Source: Occultella kanbiaonis (GTDB lineage Bacteria; Actinomycetota; Actinomycetes; Actinomycetales; Beutenbergiaceae). From it: a stretch of 64,000 bases of DNA. This document shows, in pieces, positions 61,178 through 64,000 of this stretch. A model generated the notes under the pieces. That model was not told where the DNA came from and searched no databases. It saw nothing but the letters and a program-made list of their open reading frames with translations. The DNA lies in contig NZ_CP046175.1 in the NCBI RefSeq assembly GCF_009708215.1, positions 4,712,001 to 4,776,000 of the forward strand, in the 5' to 3' direction. The position numbers and the translations under genes are program-made. How positions within the stretch are numbered: position 1 is the stretch's first letter; each line of letters opens with the position of its first letter.

Positions 61178-62245
61178 TCAGTTCGCGCGTCGCCGCGCCG
61201 CCGCGGCGGCCAGGTCCCGGAGCACCGACTCCGTCGTGTCCCAGGACATGCAGGCGTCCGTGACCGACTGGCCGTACGTGAGCCCGGACGGCGCCGGCTC
61301 CTGGCGCCCGGCAACCAGGAAGCTCTCCAGCATCACCCCGGCCACACCGCTCTCCCCCGCCGCGACGAGCTGTGCGAGCTCCCGAGCCACCTCGGCCTGA
61401 CGGACGTGGTCCTTGCCGCTGTTGCCGTGGCTGGCGTCCACCACGAGGCGCCGGACCAGCGCTGAGGCCTCGAGCACGTCGAGAGCGGCGGTGAGCGCGG
61501 GCGGGGCGTAGTTCGGTCCCCGCCGACCGCCGCGCAGGATCACGTGGGAGTCCGGGTTGCCCGCGGTATTGACGACGGCGGCCCGGCCGGCCGCGTCCAC
61601 GCCGAGGAAGGTCTGTGGTGCGGACGCGGCGACGCAACCGTCCGCGGCGACCTGGACGTCACCGTCGGAGGAGTTCTTGAAGCCGATCGGCATCGACAGC
61701 CCGGAGGCCAGCTGCCGGTGCACCTGGGACTCGACCGTGCGGGCACCGATCGCGCCGTAGCTGACGGTGTCCGCGATGTACTGCGGTGACGTCGTCTCGA
61801 GGAACTCACACCCGGCGCTCACGCCCGCGGCGAGAACGTCCAGGAGCACGGTCCGGGCCAGGCGCAGACCGCGCGGGATGTCGTAGCTGCCATCGAGCCC
61901 GGGGTCGTTGATCAGACCCTTCCAGCCGGTGGTGGTGCGGGGCTTCTCGAAGTAGACCCGCATCACCACGTGCAGGTCGTCGCTCAGTTCCGCCGCGAGC
62001 GCGGAGAGCCGGTGGGCGTACTCCACGGCCGCGACCGGGTCGTGCACCGAGCACGGGCCCACCACCGCGAGCAGGCGGTCGTCGCGGCCGGCGAGGATGT
62101 CCTGGGTGTGCGCGCGGGAGCGGGCCACGAGGTCCGCCGCCGCGTCCGGCAGCGGCTGCTCGGCGAGCACCTCGCTCGGGGTCGGCAGCGGCTCCATGCG
62201 CAGCACGCGCAGATCGCTGGTGCGTTCGCTCTGGATGGGATTCAT
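61178..62245 (-). CDS. 3-deoxy-7-phosphoheptulonate (DAHP) synthase, class I alpha
   Basis: A 355-residue AroF/AroG/AroH-type DAHP synthase, the first enzyme of the shikimate pathway, which condenses PEP and erythrose 4-phosphate. Family blocks are LLAVVGPCSVHDPVAAVEYA (metal-binding Cys), MRVYFEKPRTTTGWKGLIND, the PIGFKNSSDGD loop and VDASHGNSGKDH. Length equals the E. coli isoenzymes. I give ATG 62245; a TTG two codons earlier (62251) has better spacing from AAGGA. The 5' leader carries an aromatic attenuator, so expression should respond to charged tRNAs. The final Glu and Asp metal ligands are present (VAGVMLESFL, SVTDACMSWD). Confidence 0.95.
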   Translation of the reverse strand: MNPIQSERTSDLRVLRMEPLPTPSEVLAEQPLPDAAADLVARSRAHTQDILAGRDDRLLAVVGPCSVHDPVAAVEYAHRLSALAAELSDDLHVVMRVYFEKPRTTTGWKGLINDPGLDGSYDIPRGLRLARTVLLDVLAAGVSAGCEFLETTSPQYIADTVSYGAIGARTVESQVHRQLASGLSMPIGFKNSSDGDVQVAADGCVAASAPQTFLGVDAAGRAAVVNTAGNPDSHVILRGGRRGPNYAPPALTAALDVLEASALVRRLVVDASHGNSGKDHVRQAEVARELAQLVAAGESGVAGVMLESFLVAGRQEPAPSGLTYGQSVTDACMSWDTTESVLRDLAAAAARRRAN

Positions 62246-62311
62246 CTTCAACGGTGTCCTTCCGGTCCGGGCGGATCACCCCAGGTCCCGGAGCGCCCGC
62301 CTCAATGGCGA

Positions 62312-62394
62312 AGGGCGCGGACCCCAAATGGTCCACGCCCTGTGTCGGCTCCGGTTGCGCGTCAGTGACTGAGCGCGACGGCCGGGGCCGACAC
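62312..62394 (-). promoter_or_regulatory. Transcription attenuator hairpins upstream of DAHP synthase
   Basis: In RNA order on the minus strand there are two adjacent hairpins. The first pairs 62382-62394 with 62342-62354 (GTGTCGGC and GCCGACAC core, 12 of 13 pairs). The second pairs 62330-62341 with 62312-62323 (AGGGCGTGGACC and GGTCCGCGCCCT) and abuts the first. The first arm starts four bases after the Phe codon of the leader peptide. A ribosome stalled there would cover it and change the folding of the second hairpin, the terminator. A clear 2:3 antiterminator pairing was not found by eye. Confidence 0.7.
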
Positions 62395-62424
62395 GCTAAA
62401 CCAATACTGCTGTGCGCAACGCAT
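62362..62424 (-). CDS. Aromatic amino acid leader peptide (20 residues)
   Basis: The 20-codon frame MRCAQQYWFSVSAPAVALSH begins at ATG 62424 and stops at TGA 62362-62364, just ahead of the attenuator hairpins of the DAHP synthase gene. Codons 7-9 are Tyr-Trp-Phe, one for each end product of the pathway. Scarcity of any charged aromatic tRNA would stall the ribosome there. No ribosome site precedes it; TATCCT seven bases upstream suggests a leaderless start. Identification rests on position, codon content and the following structures. Confidence 0.75.
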   Translation of the reverse strand: MRCAQQYWFSVSAPAVALSH

Positions 62425-62430
62425 GAGGTG

Positions 62431-62436
62431 AGGATA
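62431..62436 (-). promoter_or_regulatory. -10 element of the aromatic leader transcript
   Basis: On the minus strand TATCCT ends six bases before the leader ATG, placing the transcript start at or one base from it. The -35 region falls within the terminator of the upstream FAD oxidoreductase gene and shows no TTGACA-like hexamer. Confidence 0.5.
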
Positions 62437-62449
62437 CACACCCGGCGAG

Positions 62450-62484
62450 GCTGCGCCGTCGGGCGTCTCACCCGACGGCGCAGC
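62450..62484 (-). terminator. Terminator of the FAD oxidoreductase gene
   Basis: GCTGCGCCGTCGGG (62450-62463) and CCCGACGGCGCAGC (62471-62484) are perfect 14-base arms with a 7-base loop, immediately after the stop at 62490 on the minus strand. Confidence 0.8.
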
Positions 62485-62489
62485 GCGGG

Positions 62490-64000
62490 TCAGAAGGCCG
62501 GACCGGTCCGCCGGATGTCGTCCGGCCAGGCCGTGGTCACCCCGAGCGTGCCCTGCAACAGATCCTGGTAGTCGCCCCGGCTGGTGGCGTCGGCATGCAC
62601 CTTGCGGGGGGCCACGCCCCGGTCCAGGCAGAACGCCACGAGCGCACCGACCGCCTCCCCGATCGACCACTCGACCGGGTGCAGGCGGTAGCAGCCGTTC
62701 GTGATGTGCGTGGTGCCGATGTTCTTGCAGGCCGGCAGCAGGTTGTCGACCCGGACCGGCAGGAGGGCACCGAGCGGGATCTGGAACGGGAAGCAGGCGA
62801 TGTCCACATAGGTGCGCCCGGCGGTCGAGGGGTGCAGGTCGATCCGGTACTGGCCGATACCCACGGCGTCGTCGAACACCTCGGATCCCGCGCCCACCCC
62901 GCGAGCCTTGACGCCCACGTGCTGCTCCAGGACCGTGAACTCGGCCTCGATCCGGCGCGACTCGCGGATGTAGGCGGCCTTGGCCAGTCCGTCCGCGGTG
63001 CCGGTCACGTCGGGGCGCAGCCGCAGGCCCGGGTAGCCGGTGCCACCGTCCTCGCGTGGCGCGTCGGTCTGCATCCAGTACAGGAAGGACAGCGACAGCT
63101 CCCGGCTGGCCGCGAGGGCCTGCTCCTTCTCGGCTTCGCCGACGCCGAGGAGCGGCGCATCCCAGTAGTCGATCTGCGGCCAGTTCACCGTGGAGATGTC
63201 ACGCAGGCCCGAGGCCGGGTCGAACTGCTCGGCGGCCAGGATCCGGCGGTAGCGCCACAGGTCGAACGGGACGCCGTCCGTCGGCTCGGACATGAAGATC
63301 GGCCGGTCCCGACGGGCCAGGAAGACGGGCTCCACGTCCACCCAGGACAGCTGCGGTCCGGGCCAGAAGTCGTCCACCTTCGTGGCCCAGTGGTGGTAGG
63401 ACGCGGGGCGGTCGATCGTGTGGTCCTCCCCGGGCCGGTGCTCGAGCGCGAAGCACCAGGAGACCGCCTGCTGATCGAGTGGATCCGCCTCCTCGGGCGC
63501 ATGGAGTTCGCCGGTGCGCTGACGAGACTCGGCGCCGATGACGTGTTCCACCCCGCCGAGCTCGAGCAGGTCCCCGAGTTCGGTGGCATCGACCACGAAG
63601 TCCGCGGTGACGGTCACCTCGTCGCCGGTGCGCTGATCGCGCAGCGTCACCGCGTCGATGAGGTCGCCGCCCGCGTGGACCGCCGTCGGGACGTGCTCCC
63701 GCAGCACCTCGATCGCTCCCGAGGCGCACCACGGAGCCAGCATCTCCTCGATGGCGGCCACCGCGACCCTGGGCTCGTGGCACAGCCGGGACACCTTGCC
63801 GAGCCCCGGGTTGAGCGCGGGGTCCTCGGCCGCGTCCGGTAGCAGCGGGTAGTTGCGCCGGTAGTAGTCACGGATCCGGCGCCGGAGCTCGGCGTAGCTC
63901 GGGGAGACGAGTTCGGACTCGATCCAGGCGTGCTCGTCGGGTGGCACGAGCTGGGCGGTCAGCTGCCCACCGAGCCAGTCGGTCTCCTCGGTGAGGACCA
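62490..64000 (-). CDS. FAD-dependent oxidoreductase, C-terminal part (cut by window edge)
   Basis: The last 503 codons of an FAD-dependent oxidoreductase of the FAD_oxidored (pfam12831-like) family. The frame is open to the window edge and reads LTEETDWLGGQLTAQLVPPD, which in full-length members follows the N-terminal FAD GxGxxG motif. Later blocks are DFVVDATELGDLLELGGVEH, IPLGALLPVRVDNLLPACKN and GTTHITNGCYRLHPVEWSIG with GEAVGALVAFCLDRG, typical of the C-terminal FAD-binding segment. Members are often linked with sugar or polysaccharide catabolism. The N-terminus and start are outside the window. A strong hairpin terminator follows. Confidence 0.9.
   Translation of the reverse strand, partial: VLTEETDWLGGQLTAQLVPPDEHAWIESELVSPSYAELRRRIRDYYRRNYPLLPDAAEDPALNPGLGKVSRLCHEPRVAVAAIEEMLAPWCASGAIEVLREHVPTAVHAGGDLIDAVTLRDQRTGDEVTVTADFVVDATELGDLLELGGVEHVIGAESRQRTGELHAPEEADPLDQQAVSWCFALEHRPGEDHTIDRPASYHHWATKVDDFWPGPQLSWVDVEPVFLARRDRPIFMSEPTDGVPFDLWRYRRILAAEQFDPASGLRDISTVNWPQIDYWDAPLLGVGEAEKEQALAASRELSLSFLYWMQTDAPREDGGTGYPGLRLRPDVTGTADGLAKAAYIRESRRIEAEFTVLEQHVGVKARGVGAGSEVFDDAVGIGQYRIDLHPSTAGRTYVDIACFPFQIPLGALLPVRVDNLLPACKNIGTTHITNGCYRLHPVEWSIGEAVGALVAFCLDRGVAPRKVHADATSRGDYQDLLQGTLGVTTAWPDDIRRTGPAF

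Follow-up and report, generated by a model that had tools for sequence, protein, structure and literature searches.

The question raised by this locus is whether one short leader peptide could sense the supply of all three aromatic amino acids for the gene that it precedes. The window, a stretch of 64,000 nucleotides from the genome of Occultella kanbiaonis, had been read from its sequence only as containing a 20-codon ORF with adjacent Tyr, Trp and Phe codons before two abutting hairpins and a DAHP synthase gene, and this arrangement was confirmed by coordinates, folds and matches to TIGR00034 and NF009395. From the comparisons given below, the element is probably a ribosome-sensing attenuator for the supply of Tyr, Trp and Phe together, and its control probably acts on both termination and translation.

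The leader and the DAHP synthase gene in the window

The features of the locus are listed here by their window positions. Hairpins A and B are two strong, mutually abutting hairpins 3' of the Tyr-Trp-Phe codons.

62431..62436, minus strand: -10-like box TATCCT, recognised from the sequence
62362..62424, minus strand: leader ORF MRCAQQYWFSVSAPAVALSH of 20 codons, probably leaderless (sequence; similar leaders in relatives)
62398..62406, minus strand: regulatory codons TAT TGG TTT (Tyr-Trp-Phe; sequence)
62372..62397, minus strand: P0, a possible hairpin in the leader ORF right after these codons, 62397-62387 with 62382-62372, which pairs when held
62382..62394, minus strand: S1, 5' arm of hairpin A (1:2), inside the leader ORF (folding, co-adaptation, compensatory changes)
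62342..62354, minus strand: S2, 3' arm of hairpin A, with S3 as alternative partner (folding, co-adaptation)
62312..62341, minus strand: B, a 12-bp hairpin abutting A, 62341-62330 with 62323-62312, terminator-like in the family (covariation)
62288..62301, minus strand: S3, partner of S2, or of S4 in hairpin 3:4 (co-adaptation, window fold)
62270..62284, minus strand: S4, 3' arm of hairpin 3:4 (folding), of which 62280-62273 is complementary to the Shine-Dalgarno region
62253..62261, minus strand: aroG Shine-Dalgarno (SD) region AAGGACACC, which can pair with S4 (7 bp, one bulged A)
61178..62245, minus strand: class I DAHP synthase gene, called aroG here (TIGR00034 and NF009395 matches)

The spacer CACCTC (six bases) separates TATCCT from the leader ATG (62424-62422, minus strand), and the stop codon TGA of the leader ORF lies at 62364-62362 (minus strand). 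No AGGA, GGAG, GAGG or AAGG was found upstream of the ATG when the window sequence was inspected. The 174-nt leader folded 3.9 SD (standard deviations) better than its dinucleotide shuffles, with 0 of 200 shuffles as good. In Rfam no match reached the gathering score except a distant tRNA gene, and the best one near the site (E 0.45) was unrelated. An inverted repeat (CTGCGCCGTCGGG..CCCGACGGCGCAG, 62451-62486) lies immediately 5' of the -10 box, at the expected -35 position; it probably serves as terminator for the gene before it (62490-63998, minus strand), which no NCBIfam model matched.

The aroG gene is the sole PF00793 match in the window genome (5.65 Mb), and a class II DAHP synthase is encoded elsewhere in that genome. 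Its probable start is ATG 62245, with TTG 62251 as the alternative; in L083, a locus from the same genus, the position of TTG 62251 is not occupied by a start codon.

Recurrence of the leader in actinobacteria

Upstream regions of class I DAHP synthase genes were taken from named genomes (80 loci kept), from 199 relatives (47 with a match) and from 394 genomes of the class (78 with a match). When ORFs of 8-45 codons in 420 bases were considered, Tyr, Trp and Phe stood within six codons of each other at 97 of the 157 actinobacterial loci vs 12 of 785 dinucleotide shuffles, and leader ORFs with at least three aromatics were present at 115 of 157 loci vs 43 of 785 shuffles. Four of these 157 loci, also among the 108 described below and none of them a cluster representative, share 150 bases with another locus; with near-duplicates removed, the counts became 94/153 and 111/153. 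Loci without such a leader include those of Nocardiopsis and bifidobacteria. A held-out set of 60 loci came from a single family, in which 211 of the 251 genomes searched have the gene. It contained the leader at 59 loci, and 58 of these 59 leaders had Tyr, Trp and Phe; two of the 60 loci are identical to others (L218 to L015, which was already in the first set, and L217 to L216), leaving 58 loci truly new and different. The conservation of a short aromatic ORF, which the sequence-only reading had put forward as a check, was therefore borne out. The Tyr-Trp-Phe design before DAHP synthase, which that reading singled out for attention, is real; it is common before actinobacterial class I DAHP synthase genes and not specific to the window.

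Parsing yielded 116 leaders, and eight (L005, L104, L107, L140, L162, L194, L195 and L197) were dropped as spurious by eye, which left 108; of the dropped ones, L005 and L107 do seem to have a related element, spelled differently or in a different frame. TANNNT ending 3-10 nt 5' of an in-frame ATG or GTG was present in 108/108 parsed leaders (100 at 6-7 nt) and in 59/59 held-out leaders, when about 0.8% per start would be expected by chance, and a Shine-Dalgarno-like 4-mer preceded the leader start in 9/108. ORF, codons and -10 distance are thus kept in relatives. Because the -10 box keeps its distance before the start, the leader is probably translated leaderless throughout the family, in agreement with what the six-base spacing and the missing ribosome site of the window leader had suggested.

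The Tyr and Phe codons of the 108 leaders mostly end in T (TAT 131 vs TAC 7; TTT 104 vs TTC 16), and these forms are rare in 28 long window ORFs (TTT 3 vs TTC 340; TAT 18 vs TAC 255), which were selected at GC3 >0.85, a selection favouring the contrast with the leader codons. This usage might stem from wobble decoding or from RNA structure. The aromatic residues stood in 17 orders in 167 leaders, a tally that requires at least three aromatics in six codons and is hence biased towards Trp; the tally of 46 leaders found with an RNA model, given below, avoids this bias. DAHP synthase leaders of the YPYF or YRYF type, with no Trp in the cluster, were seen at L115, L117, L121-L124, L126, L127, L129-L131 and L133.

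Covariation and co-adaptation of the helices

Covariation of hairpins A and B was examined in an alignment of 48 of the 49 sequences obtained from 51 cluster representatives, L100 being omitted. Changes on both sides were present in 15 of 23 pairs, and the covariation score was 0.321 vs at most 0.125 when the structure was slid, so the expectation of covarying stems held for both hairpins. Compensatory changes affected 6 of 12 pairs in hairpin A; in hairpin B, 94.9% of cells were paired and 9 of 11 pairs had double changes.

The remaining segments were examined by an alignment-free test of co-adaptation, in which the pairing of segments within one species was compared with their pairing with the segments of other species. 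The 108 leaders minus 15 of a compact type and eight mis-parsed or odd ones (L083, L084, L186, L191, L003, L095, L097 and L021) gave 85 loci in 51 clusters, with the gene start known for 39 of the 51 clusters in the S4:SD test. Co-adaptation was found for P0 (z -10.6), S1:S2 (z -11.5), S2:S3 (z -7.2) and S3:S4 (z -5.1) in 51 clusters and for S4:SD (z -5.7) in 39, and the control pairs S3:SD (z -0.7), S2:SD (z +1.5) and S1:SD (z -0.2) were null, as were gap segments. Three pairs were marginal in these tests (S1:S1b, p 0.019; S2:S4, p 0.046; aromatic codons:S2, p 0.033). The counterparts in relatives of the segments at 62301-62253, which lie outside the span originally noted, therefore co-adapt with the 3' arm of hairpin A and with the SD site. 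A small hairpin right after B (CGYC..GRCG), spotted by eye, was dropped since its pairing with S3 (T:S3) was null (z -1.2).

The tests were rerun on held-out loci, since the segments had first been spotted in the original set. With eight further loci excluded, there were 21 clusters of the type with hairpin B, to which the window belongs, and 14 of the compact type. The B-type clusters repeated P0 (p <0.0002), S1:S2 (p 0.004), S2:S3 (p 0.007) and S3:S4 (p 0.006). For S4:SD the result was p 0.11 in the B type and p 0.003 in the compact type, in which S3:S4 gave p 0.63. S4:SD is the least secure helix in the window's type because its held-out repeat came only from the compact type. Mutually exclusive helices are thus kept in relatives by compensatory change, with this limit on S4:SD, and the SD site can be closed by a segment that also pairs elsewhere (S4:SD with S3:S4).

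The compact type is without hairpin B and was found in 16 of 108 parsed loci (L011, L022, L026, L029, L032, L034, L036, L044, L059 and others). In it S2 and S3 make one short-looped hairpin (CGAGCCGG..CCGGCTCG), and the 10 nt after this 2:3 hairpin contain 1.7 T (15 of 16 loci). In the first set its S4:SD co-adapted (z -4.2, n=13), but S1:S2 gave only p 0.10.

A competitor for the arms of hairpin B was sought among the segments, and none was clear (marginal: S1:B5, p 0.050; S1b:B3, p 0.057; B5:S3, p 0.07). No antiterminator sharing bases with the terminator-like hairpin B was found in these tests, the arms of B pairing clearly only with each other. Therefore the classical terminator/antiterminator picture is incomplete for this element.

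Folding and the proposed switch

The SD segment 62261-62257 was used in the window folds, in which S2:S3 amounts to 7 bp (62354-62348 with 62294-62288). The free fold gave hairpin A at 0.99, P0 at 0.01 and S4:SD at 0.01-0.02, and with a ribosome placed at the stop codon the fold had A at 0.69 and S4:SD again at 0.01-0.02. With P0 held, S2:S3 reached 0.73 and S4:SD 0.44, about 2 kcal/mol above the free fold.

To simulate a stall, the leading edge of the ribosome was set 12 nt downstream of the codon's first base. Stalling at the Tyr or Trp codon of the window left A at 0.89 and 0.65, respectively, together with 3:4, and stalling at the Phe codon masked S1, with S2:S3 at 0.88 and S4:SD at 0.61, an OFF-like fold. 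The window's codon for Phe lies so close to S1 that a shortage of Phe may have another effect than a shortage of Tyr or Trp. Equilibrium folding of 49 loci revealed no general gain in SD access for a stall at the first aromatic codon (9 up, 6 down, p 0.32) or at the last one (6 up, 4 down, p 0.63). In such models, equilibrium folding by itself does not prove a switch.

We infer the order of the states, the sign of the response and the way in which hairpin B is overcome as follows. Transcription would start at or next to the leader ATG, as the kept -10 distance suggests, and a ribosome would load there without an SD site. When any of the three charged tRNAs (Tyr, Trp or Phe) becomes scarce, this ribosome would stall on TAT TGG TTT and cover the 5' arm of P0, leaving S1 wholly or partly free, and S1 would pair with S2 into hairpin A. 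Then S3 would be paired with S4, the SD site of aroG would be open, and more DAHP synthase would be made. When aromatics are ample, the ribosome would run through, P0 would close over S1, S2 would pair with S3, and S4 would close the SD site. This OFF fold would require P0 to be held kinetically in the window, because both the free fold and the stop-codon fold also give A. Hairpin B lies between these segments and against A, so the device would probably govern read-through too; B may terminate when aromatics are ample, and at a guess hairpin A, once formed against B, hinders termination.

Copies before other genes

A covariance model was built from hairpins A and B and searched against the window genome and 394 genomes of the class. 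Two good matches were obtained in the window genome, one being the leader of aroG (E 2.8e-16) and the other lying at G000:C1:1104290-1104436 on the minus strand (E 1.9e-8); the next best match had E 2.4. The second match lies directly before a tyrosyl-tRNA synthetase gene (loci L278 and L281; also L272-L274), whose protein is 87% identical to a same-genus protein matching TIGR00234. Its leader VLTRRVYPNGSGVSRSPARP has a single Tyr codon (TAT), with TAGGCT seven bases before the GTG, and this tyrS copy of the element was present in 3/3 same-genus relatives searched. The free folds of the copy had P0, B, 2:3 and a closed SD site in G000, G001 and G002 and hairpin A in G003, and its 3:4 pairing was seen by eye only. 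In the stalled fold the SD site was closed in 4/4 genomes and A appeared in only one. A further, distant match to that synthetase (30% identity) is present elsewhere in the window genome.

The class-wide search gave 69 matches in 67 of the 394 genomes, and 46 of the 69 precede DAHP synthase genes. Twenty matches away from DAHP synthase were fetched (G124 was not included, and that of G295, on the minus strand, overlaps a DAHP synthase leader). Eighteen of them (L288-L305) had a -10-linked leader and a chorismate mutase gene downstream by tblastn, and L306 and L307 had neither. Six of the 18 chorismate mutase proteins were compared with Pfam, three of which consisted of a DAHP-synthase-like stretch plus CM_2 and three of CM_2 alone. 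The chorismate mutase leaders contained Trp in 0/18, Phe in 18/18 and Tyr in 12/18; a -10-linked ORF was present in 46/46 model-found DAHP synthase leaders, with Trp in 33 (in three of these only outside the cluster, hence 30/46 in the cluster). In this comparison target is partly confounded with lineage: a single family supplied 17 of the 18 copies at chorismate mutase genes, and Trp is also missing from one group of leaders at DAHP synthase genes.

With that limit, the codons match the target gene, and as read from the sequences they correspond to the products of the gene that each leader precedes. A combined Tyr, Trp and Phe sensor before DAHP synthase, as had been proposed for the window, fits because the copies at chorismate mutase and tyrosyl-tRNA synthetase genes carry codons of the products of those genes. 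A broader proposal is a little less than evenly probable: a codon-programmed chassis would be spread across actinobacteria, in which a leaderless leader and a five-helix relay (P0, 1:2, 2:3, 3:4 and 4:SD) round a terminator-like hairpin would control termination and translation initiation, with a change of codons adapting it to each target (Tyr+Trp+Phe for DAHP synthase, Phe+Tyr for chorismate mutase and Tyr for tyrosyl-tRNA synthetase). Since the natural copies combine a common scaffold with differing sets of codons, the effect of codon choice and position on attenuator specificity is directly testable.

Alternative explanations

Hairpins A and B alone might matter, B being a terminator tuned by the abutting A and the pairings of S3, S4 and the SD site being a separate, constitutive brake on translation. 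This is rather unlikely, even though several results could be read in this way. Both hairpins covary clearly, and they abut within 0-2 nt in 84/85 loci. The 10 nt from the last base of B contain a mean of 5.0 T (85 loci) vs 16.6% T overall, and B looks like an intrinsic terminator in many relatives. Three Corynebacterium-like loci (L202-L204) have recognisable S2 and B, and S3 was not seen by eye; all stalled folds of the tyrS copy, moreover, keep the SD site closed. The tail after B in the window itself (TCGCCATT) is, however, a poor U-tract, S2:S3 and S3:S4 tie A to the downstream part, and the compact type keeps the leader and S4:SD although it has no B.

Classical transcription attenuation of the trp type, in which the stall masks S1, S2:S3 is the antiterminator and 3:4 is the terminator formed when aromatics are plentiful, is unlikely. 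The chain S1-S2-S3-S4 that it needs exists and co-adapts, and were 3:4 a terminator, 2:3 would qualify as an antiterminator sharing its bases. The Phe stall of the window gives S2:S3 and the stop-codon ribosome leaves A and 3:4, which is the classical order, and the available text of PMC11802643 places the attenuation of aroF in C. glutamicum at the level of the transcript. But 3:4 is followed by no U-run in the window or in the relatives inspected by eye, and such a device has no need for S4 to co-adapt with the SD region (z -5.7) or for the two arms of P0 to co-adapt with one another (z -10.6). Moreover, the 2:3 pairing would release S4 to close the SD site, which is the wrong sign.

That the sensor is the nascent peptide, or re-initiation downstream of the leader, and not codon-specific stalling is very improbable: APGG-like residues do recur 3' of the aromatic cluster, but this stretch is the coding strand of S1 and covaries as RNA, while the order of the aromatics varies (17 orders in 167 leaders) and their content tracks the target gene. 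A chance ORF with no regulatory role, for which its shortness and missing SD site could speak, was rejected as next to impossible, being contradicted by the counts of conservation, codon bias, covariation and kept -10 spacing.

Relation to known attenuators

The aroR leader of aroF in Corynebacterium glutamicum was reportedly described by Neshat in 2014. According to the text available of PMC11802643, aroR contains F-Y-F and transcription responds to Phe, Tyr supply being reported as without effect; the leader is also covered in PMC4046766 and PMC7356990, as far as their available parts tell. Like the window leader, aroR, known here by description, is a short ORF with aromatic codons in front of a gene for DAHP synthase, and control by stalling has been proposed for it; the available descriptions name Phe and Tyr codons only, whereas the window leader adds Trp and the S3, S4 and SD segments. 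RFYF leaders occur at the three Corynebacterium-like loci, where S2 and B can be recognised by eye, so aroR probably belongs to the same RNA family.

Attenuators at trp leaders are known from Streptomyces and Corynebacterium, and the 2005 survey of actinobacteria saw no conserved structures for other amino acid pathways in the portion of its text available (PMC1262725). With the trp and phe attenuators of the E. coli type the window element shares clustered end-product codons in a short ORF and alternately pairing segments. It differs from them in having three amino acids at one site, a leaderless start, a terminator-like B outside the alternating helices and a last segment complementary to the SD region. 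In translational attenuators of the erm type (ermC/ermA), stalling of the ribosome on the leader sets off exchanges between helices by which the SD site becomes free. Unlike there, starvation for a codon and not a drug would stall the ribosome of the window element, the target is an enzyme of amino acid synthesis, and B is embedded.

The uORFC-13-1 motif, which precedes aroF in Acholeplasma, resembles the window element in placing a leader ORF and a terminator before a DAHP synthase gene. The available text of PMC8632094 describes it with at least one Phe codon and from Acholeplasma and environmental sequences. A literature search in which subscription literature was thinly covered, so that absence weighs little, found the element described only for C. 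glutamicum in the texts available, besides the Acholeplasma motif; under the same thin coverage, a pan-aromatic form across actinobacteria, the leaderless rule, the SD relay and the copies at chorismate mutase and tyrosyl-tRNA synthetase genes were not found in print. Actinobacteria make numerous aromatic-derived products. The proposed reading, if true, would account for the adjustment of the shikimate pathway's first enzyme to the overall need for aromatics in many of them, and leaderless translation would be coupled to attenuation in a general way.

Mixed Phe-Tyr-Trp ORFs (e.g. FYFWYY and SYFWYF) were also seen before DAHP synthase genes of Xanthomonas, Bradyrhizobium, Mesorhizobium and others. 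Tyr, Trp and Phe stood within six codons at 15 of 39 non-actinobacterial loci as a raw count, and these cases include L046, L053-L055, L060, L061, L063, L066, L067, L069, L070, L074, L075 and L080.
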